A stretch of 64,000 nucleotides of DNA. Source: Amphritea atlantica. Lineage in GTDB: Bacteria; Pseudomonadota; Gammaproteobacteria; Pseudomonadales; Balneatricaceae. Numbering within the stretch: position 1 is the first letter of the stretch; each line of letters opens with the position of its first letter. The stretch spans positions 3,401,001 to 3,465,000 of the forward strand of contig CP073344.1 of assembly GCA_024397875.1 (NCBI GenBank), read 5' to 3'. A program made the position numbers and the translations under genes. Positions 18,224-51,979 of this stretch are shown one piece after another. The notes beneath the pieces were generated by a model that saw nothing but the letters and a program-made list of their open reading frames with translations, did not search any database and was not told where the DNA came from.

Positions 18224-18517
18224 ATGACGACTGAACAAAAACGCACCTTTTGGCAAAAGCACATCGATGGCTGGCAGCAGAGCGGACTTTCTCAGCCAGA
18301 GTACTGCAAACAACATGATCTGAAACTCGCCAATTTCGGCTACTGGCGCACCCGCCTGAGCAAACCCAAGCGGAGCAATAAATTCATCCCGGTCGATCTG
18401 GGGCCAAACGTCCAGGCCAGGGTGTCATTGCCCAACGGCGTCCGCCTGGAAGTACCTATTCATGCCCTGGCTGATGTGCTGCCGTTGCTGAATCGAGTAG
18501 CACGGGAGGACCTCTGA
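18224..18517 (+). CDS. tnpA: IS66 accessory protein TnpA
   Basis: This 97-residue protein is the first accessory ORF of IS66 elements. It shows the helix-turn-helix-like start ([20 protein letters not shown], then [19 protein letters not shown]) typical of the family. It overlaps tnpB by one base (TGATG), so translation is coupled. It is identical to the product at 49183-49476. Confidence 0.93.
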
Positions 18518-18867
18518 TGCTTCGCCCCTCTGACAGCATACAGGTCTACCTGTACGCTGAGCCCGTGGATATGCGTAAATCCATCGATGGCTTATCCGTA
18601 CTGGTTGAGCAGGAAATGACGCTGTCTCCCAGCATGGAAGCCCTGTTTGTGTTCTGCAATCGCGGTCGCGATAAAATCAAGCTGCTGTGCTGGGAGCGCA
18701 ACGGCTTTATTGTCTGGTACAAGCGACTGGAGAAACAGCGTTTCCGCTGGCCCAAGTCTGATGACACGCTCAGCCTTACCGGTCAGGAGCTGAACTGGTT
18801 ATTGGATGGCTTCGATATTTTTAACAATCGTCCCCATCAATCCCTGTATTTTGACTCGGTCAGCTGA
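18517..18867 (+). CDS. tnpB: IS66 accessory protein TnpB
   Basis: This 116-residue protein carries the IS66 Orf2 signature VDMRKSIDGLSVLVEQEM and FVFCNRGRDKIKLLCWERNG, with the C-terminal WYKRLEKQRFRWP. It is needed together with TnpA and TnpC for transposition in studied IS66 elements. It lies between tnpA and tnpC and is identical to copy 2. Confidence 0.94.
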   Translation: MLRPSDSIQVYLYAEPVDMRKSIDGLSVLVEQEMTLSPSMEALFVFCNRGRDKIKLLCWERNGFIVWYKRLEKQRFRWPKSDDTLSLTGQELNWLLDGFDIFNNRPHQSLYFDSVS

Positions 18868-18891
18868 CCGTTCAGTGTTAAAATCCGCGCT

Positions 18892-20418
18892 ATGAGCGCG
18901 GCAAACAAACAGCTTCCAAACGACCCGGAGGCCCTCAAACGGATCATTGAGCAGCAGGCGAATCGTATCGCCGCGCTTGAAGAATCCCTGCGCCTGCAAA
19001 AACTCAAGAAGTTTGGTGCCAGCAGCGAAAAGTCTCCCGACCAGCAGGAGATGTTCAATGAAGCTGAACTGTCTATGGTGGTTGAGGAATACCTTACCGA
19101 AAGTGAGGCGGAGCAAGCACAAACTGAACTCAAAACACCGAAGGCTAAACCTGGCCGCAAACCGCTGCCAGCAGGCCTACCACGCGTACGCATCGAACAT
19201 GATCTATCCGAGCTTGAAAAACAGTGCCCCTGCGGTCATGAGCGCACCGAGATCGGAGAAACCACAAGCGAGCAACTGGACATTATCCCGGCGCAGATCC
19301 GGGTGCTGGTCAACGTACGTAAAAAGTACGCCTGTCCTACCTGTGAAGACGGCGTCCAAACGGCGCTACTGCCGCCGCAACCCATTCCCAAAAGCAACGC
19401 CAGCCCTGGATTATTAGCTCACATTGTGACCGCCAAATACCAGGATGCACTGCCGCTGTATCGCCAAGAGGCGATACTGAACCGTTCCGGTATCGAGATA
19501 CCCCGCAACACTCTGGCCAGCTGGATGATCAAGGCGGGTGAACTGACCCAGCCGCTACTTAACTTGTTGGAAGACAGCATGCTGGCTTATCCGGTACTGC
19601 ATTGCGATGAAACCAGCGTGCAGGTCCTGAAGGAGCCCGATAAAGACGCCGCCAGCAAATCCTATATGTGGGTGCGGGTCGGCGGGCCACCCACGCAACC
19701 GGTACGGCTCTTTCATTATGCGGACAGCCGTAGGGGTGAGGTCGCCAGTCAATTACTGGCGGGGTATGAAGGCTACCTGCAAACCGACGACTACGCCGGC
19801 TACAATGCCGTGGGCGCGAACGGAGTCATCACGCAATTAGGGTGCTGGGCGCACGCCCGTCGTAAGTTTATCGAAGCGCAGAAAGCGACTGCCGGCAAAA
19901 ATAAAAAAGCGGGCAAGGCCGATATGGCCGTCAGCTTGATTGGCAAACTGTACGCCATCGAGAAAAAGATCAAAGCCGAAAGTACGGAGGTCCGGTATCA
20001 AGTCCGCCAACAGGAGGCTGTGCCGCAGCTTCAGAAGATCCGGACCTGGCTGGATAATACCTTGCACAGCACGTTACCCAAGGGGTTACTCGGCAAAGCG
20101 CTGTCATATCTGGATAAAAACTGGGATAAGCTCACCGTTTACACGGAAGACGGCCGTCTGGCCATTGATAATAATCCGGCGGAAAATGCGATCCGCCCCT
20201 TCGTGGTTGGCCGTAAAAACTGGCTCTTCAGCGCCACGGTGCCGGGGGCTAAATCCAGCGCCAACCTCTACAGTCTGATCGAAACGGCGAAAGCCAATCA
20301 GCTGGAGCCTTACCAATACCTCCGCTATATCTTTGAGCAGCTGCCTAAAGCGAAGCGCATCGATCAAATCGAGGTACTGCTACCCTGGAATGTGACTTTG
20401 CAAGACGCTGTTAACTGA
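18892..20418 (+). CDS. tnpC: IS66 transposase TnpC
   Basis: The DDE transposase has 508 residues. In order it has an N-terminal Leu-zipper-like helix (EALKRIIEQQANRIAALEES), a Cys-rich zinc-binding segment (CPCGHERTEIG, CPTCEDG), and the catalytic core with LHCDETSVQVL (first Asp), LQTDDYAGYNAV (second Asp) and DNNPAENAIRPFVVGRKNW (Glu). Full length and uninterrupted, so copy 1 may be active. Confidence 0.96.
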   Translation: MSAANKQLPNDPEALKRIIEQQANRIAALEESLRLQKLKKFGASSEKSPDQQEMFNEAELSMVVEEYLTESEAEQAQTELKTPKAKPGRKPLPAGLPRVRIEHDLSELEKQCPCGHERTEIGETTSEQLDIIPAQIRVLVNVRKKYACPTCEDGVQTALLPPQPIPKSNASPGLLAHIVTAKYQDALPLYRQEAILNRSGIEIPRNTLASWMIKAGELTQPLLNLLEDSMLAYPVLHCDETSVQVLKEPDKDAASKSYMWVRVGGPPTQPVRLFHYADSRRGEVASQLLAGYEGYLQTDDYAGYNAVGANGVITQLGCWAHARRKFIEAQKATAGKNKKAGKADMAVSLIGKLYAIEKKIKAESTEVRYQVRQQEAVPQLQKIRTWLDNTLHSTLPKGLLGKALSYLDKNWDKLTVYTEDGRLAIDNNPAENAIRPFVVGRKNWLFSATVPGAKSSANLYSLIETAKANQLEPYQYLRYIFEQLPKAKRIDQIEVLLPWNVTLQDAVN

Positions 20419-20626
20419 CCGCTTACTTAATTACTTTATTAAAACCACAAACCAATCAACCAGAGCAGCAAGGCTACGGTCTTGCATTAGAAAAAGGGTT
20501 TACAGTAGAAGCATTAGATAAGAAAACAGCACAAGAGCTACAACAGTTTTATCATCATAATAGCTTTGAAGAACCTACTCATAACACAGCCATTAAAGCT
20601 AAATCGAAAGTTCAGGCGAAAGCTAG

Positions 20627-21787
20627 GGAAGGTACGATCAAGTCGCTTCTTTCCAGTCAGGCAGTCCCATCTGGCTATATCAGCCAGAAAAACCATGGTT
20701 TCTGACCATTTACTTCTGCCTGAATACCCATTTCACGGTATTCAGGCAGATTTGTCCTACGCACGTAGCATCTGACCCACTCTGACGATATTGGCTAGAG
20801 CAAAAAGCGTCGCCAGCTTGCTGTCGTTTTTCATCAGCCCACGGTATCGCGCCTTGGTAAACCCGAACTGACATTTTATGATTCTGAATGGATGCTCGAC
20901 CTTGGCTCTAATACTGGCCTTCATATATTCGATGTTTATCGGAACTTTGTTGATTCTCGGGTGTTTCTTAAGAGCCCTGACTTTTCCTGGCCGCTCCGCA
21001 ATATGCCAGTCAACGGCTTTGTCTTTTAGGTTGTCCCGCTTATCGATGCCTCGGTAGCCCGCATCAGCGAATACGAACTGCTCATCACCATGCAGTAATC
21101 GGTCTGCTTGGTTCAAATCATGTTCATTGGCAGCAGTGGTTTCAAGGCTGTGCGTCAGACCTGTTCTGGCATCGACGCCAATGTGAGCTTTCATGCCGAA
21201 ATGCCAGAGATTACCCTTCTTCGTCTGGTGCATCTCCGGATCACGCTCACCCGCCTTGTTCTTCGTTGAGCTGGGAGCCTCAATAATGGTGGCGTCCATT
21301 AGAGTGCCTTCCTTGACCAGCACACCAGCCTCAGTCAGCCAGTTGTTTACTTCCTCGAAGATCTGCCGGCCAAGTCCATTGCGTTCCAGTAGGTGCCTGA
21401 AGTTCATAATCGTCGTGTGATCAGGGATTGGTTTATCGAGCGAGAGACTCGTAAATAGCCGCATCGATGCGATTTCATAAAGAGCATCTTCCATTGCCGG
21501 ATCACTCAGGCTGTACCACTGTTGTAGACAGTGAATGCGCAGCATCGTCATCAGTGGGTAAGGCCGTCGACCGTTACCCGGTTTGGGATAATAGGGTTCA
21601 ATGACGGCTTCGATCCGTTGCCAAGGAACCAGCGTTTCCATCCGTGCCAGGAACTTTTCCTTCCGGGTTTGGTAGCGCTTCTGTCGATACTCGCAATCGG
21701 CAAAGCTGAGCTGATTTTCCATGTGCTGATCCTGGCTGACACTATGGCGGGTATTGTCTCATACGGAGGGACTTATTCGCATGTTCC
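20627..21787 (-). mobile_element. IS5-family insertion sequence
   Basis: This 1161-bp element has imperfect terminal repeats (GGAAGGTACGATCAAGTC on the left, GGAACATGCGAATAAGTC read inward from the right) and a 4-bp CTAG target duplication at 20623-20626 and 21788-21791. This is the YTAR-type target preferred by IS5 elements. It contains one intact transposase gene and appears functional. Confidence 0.92.
20757..21722 (-). CDS. IS5-family DDE transposase
   Basis: This 321-residue transposase shows the IS5 order: N-terminal [32 protein letters not shown], first Asp in [12 protein letters not shown], second Asp in [13 protein letters not shown], and the Glu region [17 protein letters not shown]. 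Length and motifs match complete IS5 transposases. It mobilises the surrounding element. Confidence 0.95.
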
Positions 21788-37340: not shown

Positions 37341-37595
37341 ATGTCTGGCAGAAAAGTAATAGGGAAACAGCTTTCAAAGGCTCGAAAAGAGAAAGGATTC
37401 ACGCAATCACAAATATCAGAATCGTCCGGTTTGGATCAGGCCATCATCTCGAAGATAGAAAATGGCCGGTTTAATGGTTCATTGCGCATCTTTGAAGATT
37501 ATCTGGATGCGCTCGACTTTGAGCTGGATATCTCACCTAAAAAGCGCGTATTGCCACGTTTCGATGAGATAGAGGGGCTTTATGGAGAAGACTGA
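37341..37595 (+). CDS. hipB: HipB-type antitoxin (XRE)
   Basis: This 84-residue DNA-binding antitoxin has a single helix-turn-helix, KQLSKARKEKGFTQSQISES, SGLDQAIISKIENGRF, and a short C-terminal tail ending with a loop that could contact HipA. It overlaps hipA by 14 bases and follows the operators described at 37283-37338, the standard HipBA arrangement. Confidence 0.93.
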   Translation: MSGRKVIGKQLSKARKEKGFTQSQISESSGLDQAIISKIENGRFNGSLRIFEDYLDALDFELDISPKKRVLPRFDEIEGLYGED

Positions 37596-38832
37596 TTATT
37601 ACTTTCCTGAAAAAGTGAGCCGAATTGATGTACAGGTTGGCGACACCCATTCAGGTATTCTGAAAAAATCGGCCAGACACGAGTTTAATTATGATGATGT
37701 TGAGAGTCCGGCCATCTCTCTGACAATGGCACGCTCAGAAGATAAGATGGGCGTGATCACGTACGGTGCTCTACACCCTATCTTTCGCCAGAATCTGCCT
37801 GAGGGCTATGTGCGGCATTACATTCATGAAAAACTCTTTCGTTTAAATAGAAATATTAAAGTCGATGATATGTTTCTGTTGGCCCTACAGATGGATAACG
37901 GCATTGGCCAATTAAATTACCAATCAGAGATCCAACTACCTACCATTCAAGAAACGACTTTAAGCGAGATTCTAAAGTGGGATAGTCAGGAAGACCTCTT
38001 TCCTCAATTATTAGAAAAACATTACTTAAAAGGTATGCTTTCCGGTGTGCAGCCTAAAGTATTGATTAACTCAGAGAGGGCTTCCGTTCATCAAAAGGAC
38101 TTCATCGTTAAATCCTTTGATGAAGAATTGGATCTGCTGACCGTTAATGAGTTTGTTTGTATGTCAGCCGCCAAACATTGTGGCCTGAATCCTCCAAATT
38201 TCTATCTGTCTGAGAATTTAGAGAACTTCGTCATAGATCGCTTTGATTATGATGAAGCGGGGAAAAAGATTGGCTTTGAGGATTTCACCACCCTGCTTAA
38301 GAAAGGCGATTCATTTGATGCTAAGTACACAGGCTCCTATGAAAACCTACTTAAAGTCGTTGCAGGCATTACACACAGTAAAGAGCAGTTTGAGTTGGCG
38401 TATCGCTATATCGTCTTCAATTGCCTGATCGGTAATGGTGATGCTCACCTGAAGAACTTTGCCCTTCAATATAATGCCGATCTGAGCGATATCCGCTTAA
38501 CACCGCCTTACGATATTACCCATACGCAGATCTATCCTACGCTTGATAAAAAGTTGGCTTTAAAGCTGGATAACGATAAAGCGTTCCCTGATAAGAAAGC
38601 ACTCATTAAGCTTGCTTCTGCTGTTCCGGGTTATGAGATCTATCATCCAGAAGTGATCATTAATTTACTGGCTGATGGCATCATGGAAAGCATTGAGAAC
38701 TCTGCTGAGATTGATGCCTTTACTGGGTTAAAGAAATCCATTCAGACGAATGTAATGGCCGTTAAAGGCGTAGCTTACAATCCGAAAGGTTATCGGCATA
38801 AGAAGAAAAAGAAGTTTGATTTTGAACCTTAA
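37582..38832 (+). CDS. hipA: HipA-family toxin kinase
   Basis: HipA kinases phosphorylate a cytoplasmic target (glutamyl-tRNA synthetase in E. coli) and induce growth arrest. The 416-residue protein has the N-terminal HipA domain, SGVQPKVLI (154-162) in the phosphate loop region, the catalytic loop GNGDAHLKNF with D287, and the metal-binding D311 in PPYDIT. All key residues are present, so it appears active. The C-terminus is Lys-rich (HKKKKKFDF). With hipB it forms a cassette between inverted repeats on the island. Confidence 0.94.
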   Translation: MEKTDYYFPEKVSRIDVQVGDTHSGILKKSARHEFNYDDVESPAISLTMARSEDKMGVITYGALHPIFRQNLPEGYVRHYIHEKLFRLNRNIKVDDMFLLALQMDNGIGQLNYQSEIQLPTIQETTLSEILKWDSQEDLFPQLLEKHYLKGMLSGVQPKVLINSERASVHQKDFIVKSFDEELDLLTVNEFVCMSAAKHCGLNPPNFYLSENLENFVIDRFDYDEAGKKIGFEDFTTLLKKGDSFDAKYTGSYENLLKVVAGITHSKEQFELAYRYIVFNCLIGNGDAHLKNFALQYNADLSDIRLTPPYDITHTQIYPTLDKKLALKLDNDKAFPDKKALIKLASAVPGYEIYHPEVIINLLADGIMESIENSAEIDAFTGLKKSIQTNVMAVKGVAYNPKGYRHKKKKKFDFEP

Positions 38833-39765: not shown

Positions 39766-41967
39766 ATGAGCATCGAGCTGCTTAAAGCCCGAATTGAAGA
39801 GGGTCTTCAGAGCAAAGAAAAAACTGAGCGCGGTCGATTTACACACCACCGCACCGCTCTTAACATCCTGCTTAAAAAGCAGATTGTGAGTGAAGCCGAT
39901 CTCACTCTGGCGCTGACTTCAGACCTGAACAATACCCTTTTCAACTTGCGAGCCAAGCTAGAAAGTGAAGGCAAGAGTGATACGCGCAGCCCTCTGACCC
40001 GTGTTCGCCGTTTAGCTGAATTTTACTCCGCTATAAGCAACATCAATGTGGATGCACTGTCGTTCACGGAGACCCTCCAAGCAGCAGCAAAAAGAAAGTA
40101 TGGCGATCGCCTGTGGACTGGGCCAATCACCCCTGAAACCCAGAAAAAGATCAAAACGGCTTACATCACTTATCGTGAAGTCGCTAGGGAAATTATCAGC
40201 GCAGCTATTGCTTCATGCCCCGAAGCCTGGGTAAATGTTAAATCTACAACCAATCCGCCCGGCCCGTTCGGAAGCGCATCTAAAGTGCTGCGAGACTATC
40301 TCACAGGCGAATCGATCCCTGCGGAGAGGGTTCCTGACATCCGGATCCACTTTATAGAGGGTTTCTTTCACCTCCCTCATAACACCCTATTAAACAAGAT
40401 CTTACGGAAGGTAGACCACAATAATCGCGGACTGAGCAAGTCAGAAAAAGATCTTTCGGCAGTCAATCGCAAGAAATATAAATACACTAAGCTGAGTGCA
40501 GATCTTCATAAAGTCTTTGATGAATACTGCGCCTATAAGATCCATGGGGCACAACCAGTGCTTGCTAACATCCCAGACTCCTTGCGCAAAAGCGAGTTCT
40601 TTGAGCAGAGAGCCAAGGTGCGTGAAAACAATAAGCGCAGCGAGGTTTGGACGAAAAACTCAAAAGAGCTATCTGGCTCTGCAAGAGCATTTCATACTGA
40701 GCTGCTTGGCTTCCAGGATTATTGCATTCACAACGAGAATACTCCGTTTGAGGCGGTCGGCAGCAAACACCTCACCGACCCTCATCTTTTGTCGAGAATG
40801 TCTGAATATGCATCTACATTGGAAACCGGTGGCAGCAAATACGGCAGAATCCTGAATTTTATTAAGCGCGGCTGCGAAAAACAGGGATATCTGAGATTTT
40901 GCGCCGATCGAGGTGAGCGCTCCATGGATCAGTTTGCTGATTGCCTTGATTACATTCTGGAGGAGTACCCAGCATGGCTAGATTCCACCAAAAAATCGGT
41001 CGGTCAACGCGGTAAAGCAGGCATGAAAGGTAAAAAGAACGTTCAGTTCTTGCTTAAAATGCCTTTCATGGATCGCAGAAAAGCTATGTACGATGCCAGC
41101 TGCTGGTTAATGCAAAGGGCTGAGTCATTTGCATTGGAAGCAAAGCATAAAGCCGAACTGACAAAGGATGCCAAAGGCTCTGTTCATGCAGAAAAGCTGA
41201 AAAAAAGCGCAGCAGCCAAGATCCGGAAGGCTCTAACATACTCCCGTGCAGCCTTGATCCAAGAGATGGCGTTTTGCAATATCCCTCGTGAGGGGAATCT
41301 CACCGAGCTTAAGTACTACCCTTATGCTCGTTCGCAAAACGAGCGATTTTCAAGCCTCACCTGGCTGCGACAGCGCAACCGTTTCCGGCTTTACATTCCC
41401 TGCCATGGTGCATCGATTATCAATCCCGATAACGGCAAGACGTATCGTGTCCTAAAAAATGCTGAAGCAAAAAATGCAGTGGACATTGATATTGAGCTGC
41501 CAGAAAACCTAACTCCCCTGATAAAAAAATATTTAAAAATCCGGGAACAGTACATCACCCTGGATCTGATTCCATTCGGCGGATTGAGTAACCCCGTGGA
41601 TATGGAATTTTTCTTCCCATGGCGCAGTATCCGTGATGAGTCGATCAACAACCCAGAAATCGCTTCACTGAGACGGTTGTTTATCGAGGTACCAGCCAAA
41701 CTCGGTGACTCTTTTAGAAGTATCACATACCAAGCCTACGTTCATACAGCCCCTGAAGAGAAGCAGCAGGGTATCAACATTCACGGACTGCGACACCTCG
41801 TTGCTGAAACTCATCTCGATGAATTTCCGGGGGATTTTGTTGGTGCGGCGGCTAAATTGAACGATGACCCCGAACAAATAATAAAAACCTACGGGGATCG
41901 TAATCGATCTAAAGCAATGCGTAGAGTTGCGGAATCCGAGCAGGTTGGATCAGACTTTACCTACTGA
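39766..41967 (+). CDS. Large tyrosine-recombinase-like protein
   Basis: This 733-residue protein has a C-terminal third consistent with a tyrosine recombinase: a box I-like IPREGNLTELKY (R508), box II HGLRHLVAETHLDEF (H673, R676, H677) and a possible nucleophile Y709 in IIKTYGDRNRSK. The N-terminal 400 residues are unfamiliar. It is far larger than the island integrase at 15472. Chromosome and phage integrases of this size are uncommon. It has 500 bp of repeat-rich DNA upstream, perhaps its own binding sites. It could be a second integrase, an excision or regulatory recombinase, or a degenerate DNA-binding relative. Confidence 0.68.
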   Translation: MSIELLKARIEEGLQSKEKTERGRFTHHRTALNILLKKQIVSEADLTLALTSDLNNTLFNLRAKLESEGKSDTRSPLTRVRRLAEFYSAISNINVDALSFTETLQAAAKRKYGDRLWTGPITPETQKKIKTAYITYREVAREIISAAIASCPEAWVNVKSTTNPPGPFGSASKVLRDYLTGESIPAERVPDIRIHFIEGFFHLPHNTLLNKILRKVDHNNRGLSKSEKDLSAVNRKKYKYTKLSADLHKVFDEYCAYKIHGAQPVLANIPDSLRKSEFFEQRAKVRENNKRSEVWTKNSKELSGSARAFHTELLGFQDYCIHNENTPFEAVGSKHLTDPHLLSRMSEYASTLETGGSKYGRILNFIKRGCEKQGYLRFCADRGERSMDQFADCLDYILEEYPAWLDSTKKSVGQRGKAGMKGKKNVQFLLKMPFMDRRKAMYDASCWLMQRAESFALEAKHKAELTKDAKGSVHAEKLKKSAAAKIRKALTYSRAALIQEMAFCNIPREGNLTELKYYPYARSQNERFSSLTWLRQRNRFRLYIPCHGASIINPDNGKTYRVLKNAEAKNAVDIDIELPENLTPLIKKYLKIREQYITLDLIPFGGLSNPVDMEFFFPWRSIRDESINNPEIASLRRLFIEVPAKLGDSFRSITYQAYVHTAPEEKQQGINIHGLRHLVAETHLDEFPGDFVGAAAKLNDDPEQIIKTYGDRNRSKAMRRVAESEQVGSDFTY

Positions 41968-43337: not shown

Positions 43338-43835
43338 TCAATCGATGACACAGTCAATTTTTTCATAATTACAATATGAGAAAGGCCAAATTGAACGTCG
43401 ACCTTTTACAAACCTAACTACATTGACCGTCCATCTTGATGGTATTTCAGCAAATATCATCATAACAGGATAAGGGCATTTTGATGCTTTAGTTAGAGCT
43501 ACTTTCGTTAAGGTTCGTTTGTCAGCAGAGCTTAGTTCGGATGTTGACTTTGGATGTGAATGCCAATCACCAAGATATGTGATGTTACCAGATGATTCTG
43601 TATAAATTTTTGATATTTTTTGTAATTGAAACTCTTGATCCGGCTCAAAACTCATTCTTTTGTGAACTGAATTTTCTCCACAAGGTATAAGGTAGGTAAC
43701 AACAACATCACCATTAGATCCAGTATATCCCATAAGAACACCGCCTGTTTCATAAGGATGCCAGTGTTCAATTTCACTTATAATTTCGTCATGGAGTTCT
43801 TTAGGTAGCCACAACTTATTCGGGGAATATTCCAT
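43338..43835 (-). CDS. JAB/MPN (JAMM) metallopeptidase of a ubiquitin-like operon
   Basis: This 165-residue protein carries the complete JAMM zinc motif: E29 in ETGGVLMGY, then H92 and H94 in GDWHSHP, S102 and D105 (HxH-x7-S-x2-D). Such enzymes cleave isopeptide or C-terminal peptide bonds of ubiquitin-like modifiers. In CBASS type II the counterpart is Cap3, and in Bil systems BilD. The ATG lies 3 bp after the stop of the E2-E1 gene, so the two are surely co-translated. It could process the Gly-terminated peptide, remove it from targets, or both. Confidence 0.92.
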   Translation of the reverse strand: MEYSPNKLWLPKELHDEIISEIEHWHPYETGGVLMGYTGSNGDVVVTYLIPCGENSVHKRMSFEPDQEFQLQKISKIYTESSGNITYLGDWHSHPKSTSELSSADKRTLTKVALTKASKCPYPVMMIFAEIPSRWTVNVVRFVKGRRSIWPFSYCNYEKIDCVID

Positions 43836-43838
43836 TAT

Positions 43839-45530
43839 TTAAATGTTGTATGTTATCCAATTTGGCGCTAAAGGAAGATTTGTCTTCTCGTCCCAAAGAT
43901 TAAGAACTGCAACATCCCATTCGAACTCTGGATAAGCATTCGACTCATCAGCTAAGAGCATAGATATGCAAACTCTAGATGCCATCAACGAAATATTATC
44001 TAAATCAAACCCTGTACCTGTAAAGGTAGGGCTGAAGCACCCCTTAGGTTGTACTTCGGCATTCTTTTCTCCAGGGGGCGATTTTATTTCATTAGCATGT
44101 ATTTTATACGAAAACTTTTTCCAAACGTCTCGTTTATTTTCTGAAGACTGTTTTCCCACAATGCCACCCCAGGCTCCATCAGTCGCTGTTGCCCACATAT
44201 ATGACTTATTTAGTCTTGCACATACTTCTGACAAATAAAGGCTGACATTTGTTTCTGCCGCGCAATCGACCACAATATCAGCATCCTTTATCATATCTAC
44301 TAAGAAGTCATGACTATCAATTTTTTCATGCTCTGATGTATTAACGTAGGGTGTGACGCCAATTTTCATATTTACCGGATGACATTCGACATAAGGAAAA
44401 GCTCTAAATATCAATTTCCTTATTGCTTCCGCTTTGTGGAAACCAATAAATTCGAATGCTGGCACCCATCTTGATAAATTACCAGCTTGTAGTATGTCGC
44501 AATCTATGACTGTCAGCTTCTTTATTCCGGCTCTAGCCAGTTGAAGTGCGACTTGAGACCCGATCGCTCCAACACCAATTAGTAAAACTGATTTGCCATC
44601 AATCCCATTAAGTCTTGGCACACGAGAGTTAAGGTTGTTTTTCGTGTAAAAGTCAGCACGTACCAAACTAGTCAATAACTCATATTTTTTCTTGGTTTTT
44701 TTGATTCTTCTTCTGACAATGAATGCCCAGTTTGTTTCTACTTTATCGCGAGAAGTTTCTTCCGGAAAAGCAAGAGCAATGATGTCAACGCCATGGCTGC
44801 CATAATTCGGTGTTTTCAGTGCTGGAAGCTTACTGACTGCAAATTCTAATAATTCATCTGCTGTTGCAACACTTGGTGTTTTTTCAAGATTCAGCCATCG
44901 GATACTCAACTTTTTGGGGAAAAATTTCTCTATTGAATGACCTGATTGAGCTTCGTTTGCTTTTTTAGGTGATTTGTCTAATGACAATAACCCTCTAATT
45001 GCTGGAATGGTTTGACTGGGCTTAATGCTTTGATTTACTCCTAAAGTGGCTAATCCTGAGATTTCATCGCAAGGTAATTCAACATCCTCTACAAATATCA
45101 CAGAATTTGGTTCATATATCATTTGCCCACTAATCTGATAGCCCTCGTCTATTTCTTCATCAGACATCGTTGTGGGATTATTGTGTATTTCAAGAATCTT
45201 GGGGATTTGTTGAGCGATAGTAGTTGCTAGTTTATCTGATGGGTGCCATTTAGACTGTTCATCAGCAAAGAGGCATAATCCTTTATCAACAGGATGCAAA
45301 TGCCTACCTGGAGGAAAATTCTCACAAGAGACTTTTACTGAGAAATACGGGTAGTTAGGTGGATACTCGCATCTTAAATTAAGTACCTCACCTTCAGCCA
45401 CGTACTTCACCAGTATAATCAGCCGTCCTTGGCTTTTCATAGGTTCATCAATTTCGTAGTCAAAAGCATGTTGATTAAGCGATTCAATCTCATCTTCAAA
45501 TACAGAAGGGTTATCGATGTACCAAGTCAT
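43839..45530 (-). CDS. E2-E1 fusion: ubiquitin-like conjugating and activating enzyme
   Basis: 563 residues. The N-terminal 120 residues read as an E2/UBC-like domain: YPPNYPYFSVKV, then HLHPVDKGLCLFADE with putative catalytic C86, and a Trp-Pro motif (KWHP). After a linker (about 120-300) follows a ThiF/E1 adenylation domain with LIGVGAIGSQ (318-327), VIDCDILQAGNLSRW (Asp/Arg ATP site), VVDCAAETNVS, and PKGCFSPTFTG with C498, the likely E1 catalytic Cys. The same order is seen in Cap2 of CBASS type II, but no CD-NTase is near. ATG lies 3 bp after the small peptide gene, whose end contains its ribosome site (AGGA). Confidence 0.9.
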   Translation of the reverse strand: MTWYIDNPSVFEDEIESLNQHAFDYEIDEPMKSQGRLIILVKYVAEGEVLNLRCEYPPNYPYFSVKVSCENFPPGRHLHPVDKGLCLFADEQSKWHPSDKLATTIAQQIPKILEIHNNPTTMSDEEIDEGYQISGQMIYEPNSVIFVEDVELPCDEISGLATLGVNQSIKPSQTIPAIRGLLSLDKSPKKANEAQSGHSIEKFFPKKLSIRWLNLEKTPSVATADELLEFAVSKLPALKTPNYGSHGVDIIALAFPEETSRDKVETNWAFIVRRRIKKTKKKYELLTSLVRADFYTKNNLNSRVPRLNGIDGKSVLLIGVGAIGSQVALQLARAGIKKLTVIDCDILQAGNLSRWVPAFEFIGFHKAEAIRKLIFRAFPYVECHPVNMKIGVTPYVNTSEHEKIDSHDFLVDMIKDADIVVDCAAETNVSLYLSEVCARLNKSYMWATATDGAWGGIVGKQSSENKRDVWKKFSYKIHANEIKSPPGEKNAEVQPKGCFSPTFTGTGFDLDNISLMASRVCISMLLADESNAYPEFEWDVAVLNLWDEKTNLPLAPNWITYNI

Positions 45531-45533
45531 TTT

Positions 45534-45674
45534 CTATCCTACTGGCCGCTGAGGTGGCTGAGGTGGGACGTCAGGTCGGCCATGTCCATGGCCATGACCT
45601 GGATTTTCAGGCTTCCCATGCCCTTGGCCTGGATTGTCAGGCTTACCCTGACCGCTATGGTTATTACCGCTCAT
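45534..45674 (-). CDS. 46-residue His/Gly/Pro-rich peptide ending in Gly
   Basis: The frame could start at 45716, but ATG 45674 has AAGGA six to seven bases upstream and removes an unrelated hydrophobic start, giving MSGNNHSGQGKPDNPG, QGHGKPENPGHGHGHG, RPDVPPQPPQRPVG. It is a low-complexity, probably disordered peptide with a repeated KP(D/E)NPG(Q/H)GHG unit and a C-terminal Gly. Conjugated modifiers must end in Gly, and the gene is directly coupled to an E2-E1 gene, so it is a candidate modifier or leader. No beta-grasp fold can be accommodated in 46 residues of this composition. Alternatives are a metal-binding accessory or a truncated modifier gene. Confidence 0.68.
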   Translation of the reverse strand: MSGNNHSGQGKPDNPGQGHGKPENPGHGHGHGRPDVPPQPPQRPVG

Positions 45675-45720
45675 TTTAAATTCCTTATATTCAGTTAGAA
45701 CAAAGACCTGAAACAAGAGT

Positions 45721-45749
45721 TTGAGGATTCCTGATCCAGTTGTTATAAT
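45721..45749 (+). promoter_or_regulatory. sigma70 promoter of the XRE-ImmA pair
   Basis: TTGAGG, a 17-bp spacer and a perfect TATAAT. Start of transcription would be near 45756, leaving a 65-base leader that contains the 45780 palindrome. Confidence 0.7.
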
Positions 45750-45779
45750 TTAACGTAAAATAACAAGCTTGTAAACCCA

Positions 45780-45800
45780 AGTTTAAGATCATCTTAAACT
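45780..45800. promoter_or_regulatory. Perfect palindromic operator in the divergent region
   Basis: Arms AGTTTAAGAT and ATCTTAAACT flank one C, a perfect 21-bp palindrome 20 bp before the XRE gene and about 105 bp before the ubiquitin-like operon. A 10-bp palindrome ACAAGCTTGT lies nearby at 45763-45772. The XRE protein encoded next is the obvious ligand. Confidence 0.78.
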
Positions 45801-45820
45801 CTAGTTGTAGGGATAATACA

Positions 45821-46165
45821 ATGAACAAAGCAAACTACATTGCACAGAAAATAAAGGATTTAAGAACCTCTATTTCATGGTCGCAGTCGGAGTTGGCAAG
45901 ACAGTCAGGGGTAACCAGCGCAGCAATAAGCAAAATTGAGCAAGGCGGTAGAATCCCATCTATGACTGTTACTCGAAAAATTGCAGATGCCCTAAAGGTA
46001 TCAGTTGGCGAGCTAACAGGCGATGAATCCCCACCATCAGAAGAAGTAAATGAAGAGGCTCAGGCTTTTTTTAGGAAATTTGGAGATCTAAAAAGTCTAG
46101 AGGAGCGAGATCAAAAGCTGATATTGGAAATCATCAATAGTATGAAGGATAAAAAAAATGCCTAA
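45821..46165 (+). CDS. XRE-family regulator paired with an ImmA-type peptidase
   Basis: This 114-residue protein has an N-terminal helix-turn-helix (LRTSISWSQSELARQSGVTS, AAISKIEQGGRIPSMTVTRK) and an acidic linker leading to a helical C-terminus. It resembles ImmR-type phage and ICE repressors. Its stop overlaps the next gene by 8 bases, so repressor and peptidase are translationally linked. It probably represses through the 45780 palindrome and may control both its own operon and the divergent E2-E1 operon. The latter is inference from the position. Confidence 0.88.
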   Translation: MNKANYIAQKIKDLRTSISWSQSELARQSGVTSAAISKIEQGGRIPSMTVTRKIADALKVSVGELTGDESPPSEEVNEEAQAFFRKFGDLKSLEERDQKLILEIINSMKDKKNA

Positions 46166-46976
46166 CAAAGCTGAGGTTGAAGCTGAATCGTTATTTGAAG
46201 ACTTTGCACTTGACTTGCCTGTATGCCCAATTAGTGTTTGTGACAGTATTTCTACTGCTAAACATCCTGTTACATATAGTGAAGTTGATTTTACAAGTCA
46301 GAATATATGTGGCATTTCTATTGGTGGTACAAAAGAAACAAAAATAATTGTAAACAAGAATATAAGTAATAATGGTAGAAAACTTTTTACTTCAGCTCAT
46401 GAGATTGGTCATGTAATTTTACACATTCAAACCGGCAAAAACTCAAGCTTCGAATGCACAGAATCCGATATTAATTGTAAAAATCAAAACACATTAAAGT
46501 ATGAAAGAGAGGCTAACAATTTTGCCTCATCACTACTCTTGCCGTCGTCTTACATCATTCCTATTGTGAGACGTAATGATATTACCTGGAGCCTTGTTGA
46601 GGAAGTTGCTAACAAATGTTCTACCTCACTTGAAGCGACAGCTAGAAGGCTTGTTAATTCGTCCTATGATAGGACCGCATTAGTCATCCATAAAGATGGA
46701 AAGATGTGGACCCCAGTCAAAAGTAGGAGTTTTCCTCTTTATATCAACTCGCTAGAGGTACTGCCCCCATTGATAACCTATGATGATACGAATAAATTCC
46801 CCGAACATTTGGATACCTGTCTACTCAATGAGTTGATTGATTCCTCCGGGAATCAAGGTGGTATGCTGTCCTATAGCTCTATATTTAACAGGGAGTACAA
46901 CCGAAGAATGACCTTAATCACTTTGCTTGAATTTGAAGAAGATGATGAGTCTGAATGGGATGCTCCTAAATTTTAG
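46158..46976 (+). CDS. ImmA/IrrE-family metallopeptidase
   Basis: This 272-residue protein has the zincin motif HEIGH (in TSAHEIGHVILH, about residues 90-101) and the third-ligand Glu in YEREANNFASSLLLPSS. ImmA peptidases cut their partner repressor in response to a signal such as DNA damage. Here the partner is the overlapping XRE gene. The C-terminal 100 residues are a variable sensing region. This supplies a plausible derepression switch for the neighbouring ubiquitin-like operon. Confidence 0.9.
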   Translation: MPNKAEVEAESLFEDFALDLPVCPISVCDSISTAKHPVTYSEVDFTSQNICGISIGGTKETKIIVNKNISNNGRKLFTSAHEIGHVILHIQTGKNSSFECTESDINCKNQNTLKYEREANNFASSLLLPSSYIIPIVRRNDITWSLVEEVANKCSTSLEATARRLVNSSYDRTALVIHKDGKMWTPVKSRSFPLYINSLEVLPPLITYDDTNKFPEHLDTCLLNELIDSSGNQGGMLSYSSIFNREYNRRMTLITLLEFEEDDESEWDAPKF

Positions 46977-47281: not shown

Positions 47282-48808
47282 TCAGTTAACAGCGTCTTGC
47301 AAAGTCACATTCCAGGGTAGCAGTACCTCGATTTGATCGATGCGCTTCGCTTTAGGCAGCTGCTCAAAGATATAGCGGAGGTATTGGTAAGGCTCCAGCT
47401 GATTGGCTTTCGCCGTTTCGATCAGACTGTAGAGGTTGGCGCTGGATTTAGCCCCCGGCACCGTGGCGCTGAAGAGCCAGTTTTTACGGCCAACCACGAA
47501 GGGGCGGATCGCATTTTCCGCCGGATTATTATCAATGGCCAGACGGCCGTCTTCCGTGTAAACGGTGAGCTTATCCCAGTTTTTATCCAGATATGACAGC
47601 GCTTTGCCGAGTAACCCCTTGGGTAACGTGCTGTGCAAGGTATTATCCAGCCAGGTCCGGATCTTCTGAAGCTGCGGCACAGCCTCCTGTTGGCGGACTT
47701 GATACCGGACCTCCGTACTTTCGGCTTTGATCTTTTTCTCGATGGCGTACAGTTTGCCAATCAAGCTGACGGCCATATCGGCCTTGCCCGCTTTTTTATT
47801 TTTGCCGGCAGTCGCTTTCTGCGCTTCGATAAACTTACGACGGGCGTGCGCCCAGCACCCTAATTGCGTGATGACTCCGTTCGCGCCCACGGCATTGTAG
47901 CCGGCGTAGTCGTCGGTTTGCAGGTAGCCTTCATACCCCGCCAGTAATTGACTGGCGACCTCACCCCTACGGCTGTCCGCATAATGAAAGAGCCGTACCG
48001 GTTGCGTGGGTGGCCCGCCGACCCGCACCCACATATAGGATTTGCTGGCGGCGTCTTTATCGGGCTCCTTCAGGACCTGCACGCTGGTTTCATCGCAATG
48101 CAGTACCGGATAAGCCAGCATGCTGTCTTCCAACAAGTTAAGTAGCGGCTGGGTCAGTTCACCCGCCTTGATCATCCAGCTGGCCAGAGTGTTGCGGGGT
48201 ATCTCGATACCGGAACGGTTCAGTATCGCCTCTTGGCGATACAGCGGCAGTGCATCCTGGTATTTGGCGGTCACAATGTGAGCTAATAATCCAGGGCTGG
48301 CGTTGCTTTTGGGAATGGGTTGCGGCGGCAGTAGCGCCGTTTGGACGCCGTCTTCACAGGTAGGACAGGCGTACTTTTTACGTACGTTGACCAGCACCCG
48401 GATCTGCGCCGGGATAATGTCCAGTTGCTCGCTTGTGGTTTCTCCGATCTCGGTGCGCTCATGACCGCAGGGGCACTGTTTTTCAAGCTCGGATAGATCA
48501 TGTTCGATGCGTACGCGTGGTAGGCCTGCTGGCAGCGGTTTGCGGCCAGGTTTAGCCTTCGGTGTTTTGAGTTCAGTTTGTGCTTGCTCCGCCTCACTTT
48601 CGGTAAGGTATTCCTCAACCACCATAGACAGTTCAGCTTCATTGAACATCTCCTGCTGGTCGGGAGACTTTTCGCTGCTGGCACCAAACTTCTTGAGTTT
48701 TTGCAGGCGCAGGGATTCTTCAAGCGCGGCGATACGATTCGCCTGCTGCTCAATGATCCGTTTGAGGGCCTCCGGGTCGTTTGGAAGCTGTTTGTTTGCC
48801 GCGCTCAT
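47282..48808 (-). CDS. tnpC: IS66 transposase TnpC (copy 2)
   Basis: 508 residues, identical to the product of copy 1, with the Cys-rich zinc segment and the DDE residues in LHCDETSVQ, LQTDDYAGY and DNNPAENAIRPF. Intact. Confidence 0.96.
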   Translation of the reverse strand: MSAANKQLPNDPEALKRIIEQQANRIAALEESLRLQKLKKFGASSEKSPDQQEMFNEAELSMVVEEYLTESEAEQAQTELKTPKAKPGRKPLPAGLPRVRIEHDLSELEKQCPCGHERTEIGETTSEQLDIIPAQIRVLVNVRKKYACPTCEDGVQTALLPPQPIPKSNASPGLLAHIVTAKYQDALPLYRQEAILNRSGIEIPRNTLASWMIKAGELTQPLLNLLEDSMLAYPVLHCDETSVQVLKEPDKDAASKSYMWVRVGGPPTQPVRLFHYADSRRGEVASQLLAGYEGYLQTDDYAGYNAVGANGVITQLGCWAHARRKFIEAQKATAGKNKKAGKADMAVSLIGKLYAIEKKIKAESTEVRYQVRQQEAVPQLQKIRTWLDNTLHSTLPKGLLGKALSYLDKNWDKLTVYTEDGRLAIDNNPAENAIRPFVVGRKNWLFSATVPGAKSSANLYSLIETAKANQLEPYQYLRYIFEQLPKAKRIDQIEVLLPWNVTLQDAVN

Positions 48809-48832
48809 AGCGCGGATTTTAACACTGAACGG

Positions 48833-49183
48833 TCAGCTGACCGAGTCAAAATACAGGGATTGATGGGGACGATTGTTAAAAATATCGAAGCCATCCAATA
48901 ACCAGTTCAGCTCCTGACCGGTAAGGCTGAGCGTGTCATCAGACTTGGGCCAGCGGAAACGCTGTTTCTCCAGTCGCTTGTACCAGACAATAAAGCCGTT
49001 GCGCTCCCAGCACAGCAGCTTGATTTTATCGCGACCGCGATTGCAGAACACAAACAGGGCTTCCATGCTGGGAGACAGCGTCATTTCCTGCTCAACCAGT
49101 ACGGATAAGCCATCGATGGATTTACGCATATCCACGGGCTCAGCGTACAGGTAGACCTGTATGCTGTCAGAGGGGCGAAGCAT
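48833..49183 (-). CDS. tnpB: IS66 accessory protein TnpB (copy 2)
   Basis: 116 residues, identical to copy 1, with VDMRKSIDGLSVLVEQ and FCNRGRDKIKLLCWERNG. Overlaps tnpA by one base. Confidence 0.94.
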   Translation of the reverse strand: MLRPSDSIQVYLYAEPVDMRKSIDGLSVLVEQEMTLSPSMEALFVFCNRGRDKIKLLCWERNGFIVWYKRLEKQRFRWPKSDDTLSLTGQELNWLLDGFDIFNNRPHQSLYFDSVS

Positions 49184-49476
49184 CAGAGGTCCTCCCGTGC
49201 TACTCGATTCAGCAACGGCAGCACATCAGCCAGGGCATGAATAGGTACTTCCAGGCGGACGCCGTTGGGCAATGACACCCTGGCCTGGACGTTTGGCCCC
49301 AGATCGACCGGGATGAATTTATTGCTCCGCTTGGGTTTGCTCAGGCGGGTGCGCCAGTAGCCGAAATTGGCGAGTTTCAGATCATGTTGTTTGCAGTACT
49401 CTGGCTGAGAAAGTCCGCTCTGCTGCCAGCCATCGATGTGCTTTTGCCAAAAGGTGCGTTTTTGTTCAGTCGTCAT
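49183..49476 (-). CDS. tnpA: IS66 accessory protein TnpA (copy 2)
   Basis: 97 residues, identical to copy 1 ([20 protein letters not shown]). First gene of the inverted tnpA-B-C set. Confidence 0.93.
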   Translation of the reverse strand: MTTEQKRTFWQKHIDGWQQSGLSQPEYCKQHDLKLANFGYWRTRLSKPKRSNKFIPVDLGPNVQARVSLPNGVRLEVPIHALADVLPLLNRVAREDL

Positions 49477-51902: not shown

Positions 51903-51979
51903 GTCCCTGTAGCTCAGTTGGATAGAGCGTTTGCCTCCTAAGCGAAAGGTCGCAGGTTCAACTCCTGCCAGGGACGCCA
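51903..51979 (+). tRNA. tRNA-Arg(CCT), complete, island-borne
   Basis: A full 77-base cloverleaf: acceptor GTCCCTG / CAGGGAC, D-arm GCTC/GAGC, anticodon stem TTTGC / GCGAA with loop CTCCTAA (anticodon CCT), T-arm GCAGG / CCTGC, encoded CCA. It is inside the island, 193 bp before the attR core, and clearly different in sequence from the split tRNA with the same anticodon. It presumably replaces the tRNA destroyed by integration. Confidence 0.95.

Follow-up and report, generated by a model that had tools for sequence, protein, structure and literature searches.

Can an enzyme cascade of the ubiquitin type work with a modifier that has no fold? The question is raised by a three-gene operon in a stretch of 64,000 nucleotides (nt) of Amphritea atlantica DNA (contig CP073344.1, positions 3,401,001 to 3,465,000; hereafter the window), which encodes a 46-residue peptide, an E2-E1 fusion and a JAB peptidase. 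We read it as an E1-E2-JAB conjugation system, related to Cap2/Cap3, in which the modifier is an intrinsically disordered Pro/Gly-rich peptide or C-terminal tail, and we put the probability of this reading at about 0.79. The initial annotation, drawn up from the sequence alone, had offered the tiny peptide as a modifier without the ubiquitin fold. This is still the best reading, and homologous operons keep both the peptide and its tail.

All three genes lie on the minus strand with a 3-bp gap at both junctions (peptide/E2-E1 and E2-E1/JAB), and the open reading frames confirmed this arrangement as first described. The genes within the earlier span 43338..45716 stood, while its upper end did not, since 45716 belongs to an upstream TTG start that is probably unused. 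The peptide gene runs from an ATG at 45674, with an AAGGA box 7 nt ahead of it, to a stop at 45534.

45534..45674, minus strand: peptide gene (46 amino acids, aa; MSGNN...PQRPVG), the proposed modifier; an open reading frame with the tail PPQPPQRPVG
43839..45530, minus strand: E2-E1 fusion (563 aa); E2-like N-terminus with H77/C86, C-terminal ThiF/E1 part with glycines 319, 321 and 324 and C498
43338..43835, minus strand: JAB/JAMM peptidase (165 aa), with proposed roles in peptide processing and conjugate removal; Prok-JAB match (1.4e-14) and JAMM residues

The peptide and its tail in homologous operons

A protein search for the E2-E1 fusion gave 30 proteins, the window's own included, and the best relative was 49% identical. 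The scan of genome contigs, which used one pattern from near the E1 Cys and so missed distant relatives, gave 40 loci in Pseudomonadota, Bacteroidota, two Patescibacteria-type genomes, one KSB1 genome and others. Plasmids add Arthrobacter and further hosts. We left out L014, whose contig ends inside the E1 match. Directly upstream of E2-E1, 37 of the 39 other loci have a Pro/Gly/His-rich frame ending in R-x-V-G/A, in some cases followed by 1-2 more residues. The peptide was also present at four of the four plasmid loci examined; on pNGR234a (L044) it is present in the DNA and missing from the PLSDB gene table, which is incomplete.

Closer sampling of single groups gave the same picture. In Bradyrhizobium, the genus of L023, 19 of 195 genomes had an E2-E1 match at E <= 1e-30; the tail motif was found in 16 of these and RRVG followed by six residues in one. 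Seven of 200 genomes of Hymenobacteraceae, the family of L016, carry E2-E1, all seven with the tail. Wider draws, the own genome included, gave E2-E1 in 2/398 genomes of the phylum and 3/369 of the class, and added the peptides of G834 (RKVA), G1310 (RPVG) and G1062 (identical to that of L023). Of 293 genomes searched from the order to which the window belongs, the own genome alone had E2-E1 at E <= 1e-20. The distribution of the system is sporadic. The peptide and its terminal Gly or Ala are kept in homologous operons with few exceptions, which is the co-occurrence that the initial annotation had proposed to look for. The regular absence of the peptide, which it had named as a refutation, was not observed.

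Several Bradyrhizobium E2-E1 copies (L061, L062, L067, L072) are split or interrupted, as if decaying. Two loci of a second Bradyrhizobium lineage (L064 and L066, 32-34% identity) have extremely His-rich peptides ending in PPPRRVG. None of 11 viral contig stretches was confirmed as carrying E2-E1, and phage records gave two partial matches, annotated moeB. Additional tail-bearing genes elsewhere were considered and rejected: the pattern PPxxRPVG-stop had 26 matches in 23 of 41 genomes or records, most of them apparently the peptide locus by sequence. The reversed control pattern had seven matches; the forward pattern does not cover other spacings or the peptide of the window itself, and not every match was mapped.

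The body of the peptide is variable among relatives, while its end is nearly fixed as R-x-V-G, rarely R-x-V-A. Besides RPVG, we observed REVG, RQVG, RRVG and RKVA. Of 94 distinct peptides, 95% close the motif with Gly and 5% with Ala; at -2, 78% have Pro and 15% Glu, and 97% have Pro at -6. The Arg (-3) and Val (-1) reach 100% by construction, as R.V[GA] was the selection pattern. Eight of the 94 have 1-2 residues beyond R.V[GA]. The set includes the last-56-residue piece of the L015 protein, and P0060 and some others have over-long starts. A profile built from 21 peptides, which scored whole peptides with the tail included, gave 53 matches up to E = 10 (32 at E <= 0.01), and all of them end in RxV[GA] type; P0031, P0032 and P0047 repeat the peptides of L010, L008 and L011.

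In the 42 peptides from the loci (39 distinct, with L015 entered as its last 56 residues only), the tail is written with six Arg codons and four each for Val, Gly and Pro. Since synonymous codons are free and the amino acids are conserved, the peptide appears to be selected as a protein; judged from these codons, its tail is under selection at the protein level. Among 1053 open reading frames of at least 150 aa in the DNA examined, 39 had a Pro/Gly/His-rich RxV[GA] frame just upstream, and all 39 were at an E2-E1 gene. On the free codon choice and these 39 of 39 upstream frames, we rejected chance or a frame artefact as the source of the peptide.

The window peptide had no significant Pfam match (best 0.19) and no match to a ubiquitin-like family in Pfam, NCBIfam or PADLOC profile scans. 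On the charge-hydropathy plot, all 77 peptides tested (<=60 aa), the window peptide included, lay on the unfolded side. The absence of a beta-grasp modifier in or near the operon, as first noted, held for the three genes and for the window proteins scanned with Pfam, with no genome-wide test made.

The initial annotation had also allowed for a metal-binding partner. A His-rich peptide that binds metal for the enzymes would suit the five His of the window peptide and the very His-rich versions in L064 and L066, and the plasmid loci L045 and L046 adjoin genes annotated for metal handling. However, the His count ranges from 0 to 10 across the 42 locus peptides, five of the 42 have none, and Cys is found only in two DUF1508 fusions (the full L015 TIR protein has Cys too), yet the RxV[GA] end is kept throughout. 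The proposal fits poorly and we regard it as extremely improbable.

The E2-E1 fusion and the JAB peptidase

The E1 part of the fusion matches Pfam ThiF (2.1e-22). Both candidate cysteines of the initial annotation, Cys86 in the E2 part and Cys498 in the E1 part, proved invariant across 47 aligned rows, among them that of the window, and so did H77. The E2 Cys aligns to the Cys of another E1-E2 fusion, and no Pfam E2 model matched the protein. The predicted structure has an E1 adenylation fold, with VIA-align matches that cover mainly residues 293-563. Among solved structures, Cap2 (7to3) is the closest relative of the E1; its absence from the 50 VIA-align fold matches listed excludes nothing. 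Cys498 would be the catalytic residue of the E1.

MoeB and ThiF were among the closest folds, which speaks for a sulfur-carrier system. The peptide would then carry a thiocarboxylate on its terminal Gly, as ThiS, MoaD and CysO do, and feed a metabolite pathway, and JAB enzymes do process some sulfur carriers. Such a role would not account for the fused E2-like domain with its invariant Cys. Moreover, 86 of the 121 neighbouring proteins picked at 31 loci were scanned, and the 25 commonest of their 73 Pfam families include recurrent M78/CapP-type regulators but no recurrent metabolic family. We consider a sulfur carrier very unlikely.

MccB structures were also among the fold matches. MccB has the E1 fold and activates a short, ribosomally made peptide, the microcin C heptapeptide; its product is a peptide-nucleotide antibiotic. 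The likeness lies in an E1 fold acting on a short peptide, and E1-type enzymes can evidently do so; the peptide of the window could give rise to a small product for secretion or signalling, with the E1 adenylating or cyclising its C-terminus. But MccB has neither an E2 domain nor a JAB, while here an invariant E2-like Cys and a JAMM peptidase accompany the peptide, and TIR and YegP proteins also carry its tail. The same 25 neighbour families include no recurrent exporter (MFS_1 in two of the 86 proteins). This explanation, too, has little to recommend it.

The full JAMM site claimed for the JAB was confirmed, and residues E29, H92, H94, S102 and D105 are present in 37 of 37 aligned rows; the rows were picked by a pattern that contains all of these residues except E29, and L005 and L032, with interrupted JAB frames, were excluded. 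Against the NCBIfam Cap3 equivalog model the protein stayed below the cut-off, with 49 of 200 bits. Six of the 42 locus peptides (five of the 39 distinct) have 1-2 residues beyond the terminal Gly. Together with the adjoining JAMM peptidase, these extra residues recall the precursors of ubiquitin-like proteins.

The tail on folded proteins and a possible mechanism

At three loci (L015, L018 and L025) folded proteins of 160-200 aa carry this tail at their end. In the Patescibacteria genome of L015 (9334-9975) the protein is a ThsB_TIR protein (9.4e-26) with the tail PPVPPRRREVG, and in L018 and L025 the tail follows DUF1508/YegP repeats. In the tree the two YegP fusions are sisters inside a Hymenobacteraceae clade; the sole outside row, L085, which entered the analysis solely as an E1-E2 fusion by its match to the PADLOC E1-E2 model, sits on a very long branch. 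Since the YegP fusions are nested in this family, the payload was probably gained within it.

Among the 120 listed of 890 homologues of the TIR protein, four end in REVG, namely that of L015 itself, P0085 (66% identical), P0086 and P0090 (57%). In 111 of the 120 listed, a P is followed by a W within three residues in the last 20 residues. We also considered TIR as a general partner of the system and rejected it; ThsB_TIR turned up in 5 of 17 genomes, and in one of these the match was the operon fusion. Downstream of the TIR fusion in L015 lie a Fic gene and a prolyl oligopeptidase gene.

If the peptide or tail is the modifier, the E1 domain would adenylate the Gly (or Ala) that closes the R-x-V-G tail, take it up as a thioester on Cys498 and pass it to Cys86 of the fused E2 domain. 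From there the peptide would be transferred to lysines of target proteins. The JAB would trim precursors with extra residues after the Gly and remove conjugates. The enzyme would recognise the tail and not a fold, and for this reason folded payloads such as TIR and YegP/DUF1508 could carry it.

Taken further, the E2-E1 family may read a tail code, that is, nothing but a disordered Pro-rich RxV[GA] C-terminus, with interchangeable payloads (nothing, YegP repeats or a ThsB-type TIR). After DNA damage, phage or host proteins would then become covalently tagged with immune signalling proteins or with a bare polyproline brush. We give this extension even odds. If the peptide is the modifier, a conjugation modifier can do without any fold and E1-E2 chemistry needs only a tail. 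This would link Pup-like disordered tags with ubiquitin-type enzymes and provide a conjugation tag that is small and easy to test; the TIR and YegP fusions open the mechanism to direct tests.

Several points weigh against the peptide as modifier. No E3, substrate or reader is known. The E2 fold is drawn from sequence alignment and predicted secondary structure, without a fold-search match, and the peptide does not end in the Gly-Gly of most modifiers. An intact peptide is missing at two of the 39 loci, L036, whose enzyme was found only as its E1 part, and L042, where a PPGHRPVG-ending frame follows an internal stop; it is also missing in two genomes of the genus Bradyrhizobium (G379 and G355). 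PADLOC gave no match for ten other window proteins. Finally, the V-G codons in the window overlap a possible ribosome-binding site of the E2-E1 gene, and most gaps between the two genes are short.

The last point would suit a leader whose translation couples or tunes E2-E1 synthesis, or else a non-covalent cofactor, with the true modifier or target elsewhere. In 36 of 40 cases the gap from the peptide to the E2-E1 start is only -4 to +8 nt (start codons assigned by choice), which suggests translational coupling, and V-G codons can resemble a ribosome-binding site. However, a ribosome-binding site accounts for neither the Arg nor the freedom in codon use; the amino acids are conserved while synonymous codons vary, REVG, RQVG, RRVG and RKVA take the place of RPVG, and the tail is found on folded proteins. 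In L013 RPVG is kept at a gap of 32 nt whichever start codon is chosen. It is the sole such locus: L041 (25 or 16 nt) and L040 (34 or 4 nt) allow earlier starts, so their long gaps depend on the start codon and the argument from long gaps comes down to L013. A leader or cofactor is in our view unlikely.

Known systems, regulators and genomic setting

The operon resembles type II cyclic oligonucleotide-based antiphage signalling systems (CBASS) with Cap2/Cap3 in its E2-E1 fusion and separate JAB, in the terminal Gly or Ala on a protein that is not a beta-grasp, and in its CapH/CapP-type regulators. The CD-NTases (cGAS/DncV-like nucleotidyltransferases) conjugated by Cap2 end in Gly or Ala, according to excerpts of PMC10097602. 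The differences are the partner, which here is disordered (a peptide or tail) and ends in RxV[GA], and the lack of a CD-NTase. As the initial annotation had noted, none of the three genes encodes one; the own genome has no match to SMODS (PF18144), other CD-NTase models not having been tried genome-wide. No CBASS-type cyclic-nucleotide-activated effector was found among the window proteins scanned with PADLOC, a subset of the open reading frames.

SMODS matches occur in 9 of 32 genomes or records of relatives; four of these lie about 6-14 kb from an E2-E1 of the family and not in the peptide's place. In L011 (Polaromonas), the RxVG operon is followed, about 6 kb downstream, by a type II CBASS with CD-NTase, E1-E2 and JAB. 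Over the E1 part, its E1-E2 protein is 25% identical to that of the RxVG operon, so the two coexist as separate systems. The CBASS genes of this locus (18287-21594) comprise a DncV-like CD-NTase ending in TSAG, an E1-E2 with Prok-E2_B and a JAB; the CBASS effector was not looked for.

Bil and Bub systems are alike in that the modifier, E1, E2 and JAB share one operon and the modifier has a C-terminal Gly. The Bub modifier is a ubiquitin-like protein. In Bil the modifier is also ubiquitin-like, and E1 and E2 are separate (PMC11354881, in excerpt), whereas here the modifier would be a disordered peptide of 46 aa and E2 and E1 are fused. The 6b/6c operons of Iyer et al. 2006 have an E2+E1 protein and a JAB as well, and pNGR234a, which belongs to the strain named there, carries the family member L044. 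In the excerpted part of that paper (PMC1779556), the 6b/6c rows list a nucleotidyl transferase or a metal-binding protein and not an RxVG peptide, and the 6c E2 domains have Cys in place of the classical His, while H77 is invariant here.

Among the papers listed by searches of open-licence full text, judged by title and the start of the abstract, none deals with a disordered or proline-rich peptide as the modifier in an operon of the E1-E2-JAB kind. Pup/UBact (pupylation) uses a small disordered protein tag with a conserved C-terminus, and in this it is like the RxVG system. The attaching enzyme differs, as the Pup ligase is glutamine-synthetase-like and not an E1-E2-JAB cascade.

A gene pair for a helix-turn-helix (HTH) protein and an M78 protease adjoins the operon. 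The initial annotation had called it an ImmA switch; the adjacent regulator is there, but CapH/CapP-like pair is the better label, after regulators that immune operons are known to carry.

45821..46165, plus strand: CapH-like HTH repressor, divergent from the operon; PADLOC capH 1.1e-17, HTH_3 6.8e-14
46158..46976, plus strand: CapP-like M78 protease, regulator partner of CapH; PADLOC capP 1e-35, Peptidase_M78 8.7e-13
45675..45820, strand unspecified: divergent intergenic region between the peptide gene and the capH-like gene, presumed promoter/operator from its position only

The pair probably controls expression of the operon in response to DNA damage, and would switch it on in an immune or stress setting. 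Among the relatives' neighbours (86 proteins, 29 loci), Peptidase_M78 was found in seven, capP in six, capH in four and phage integrase in four, with one GajA and one GajB. CapW or CapH+CapP stand beside 219 of 544 Bub operons, and yegP follows capK/capS in 57 cases, as given in excerpts of PMC13373217. Transposase genes, a HipA gene and a tRNA-Arg surround the operon. The context favours a defence role.

A HipA-type kinase gene lies at 37582-38832. The 733-aa open reading frame at 39766-41967 has no significant Pfam match and looks integrase-like by eye, with a GLRH motif near its end. The genes at 47282-49476 and 18892-20418 are putative IS66-type transposase genes, judged by eye from frame size and sequence, and the tRNA-Arg is at 51903-51979.
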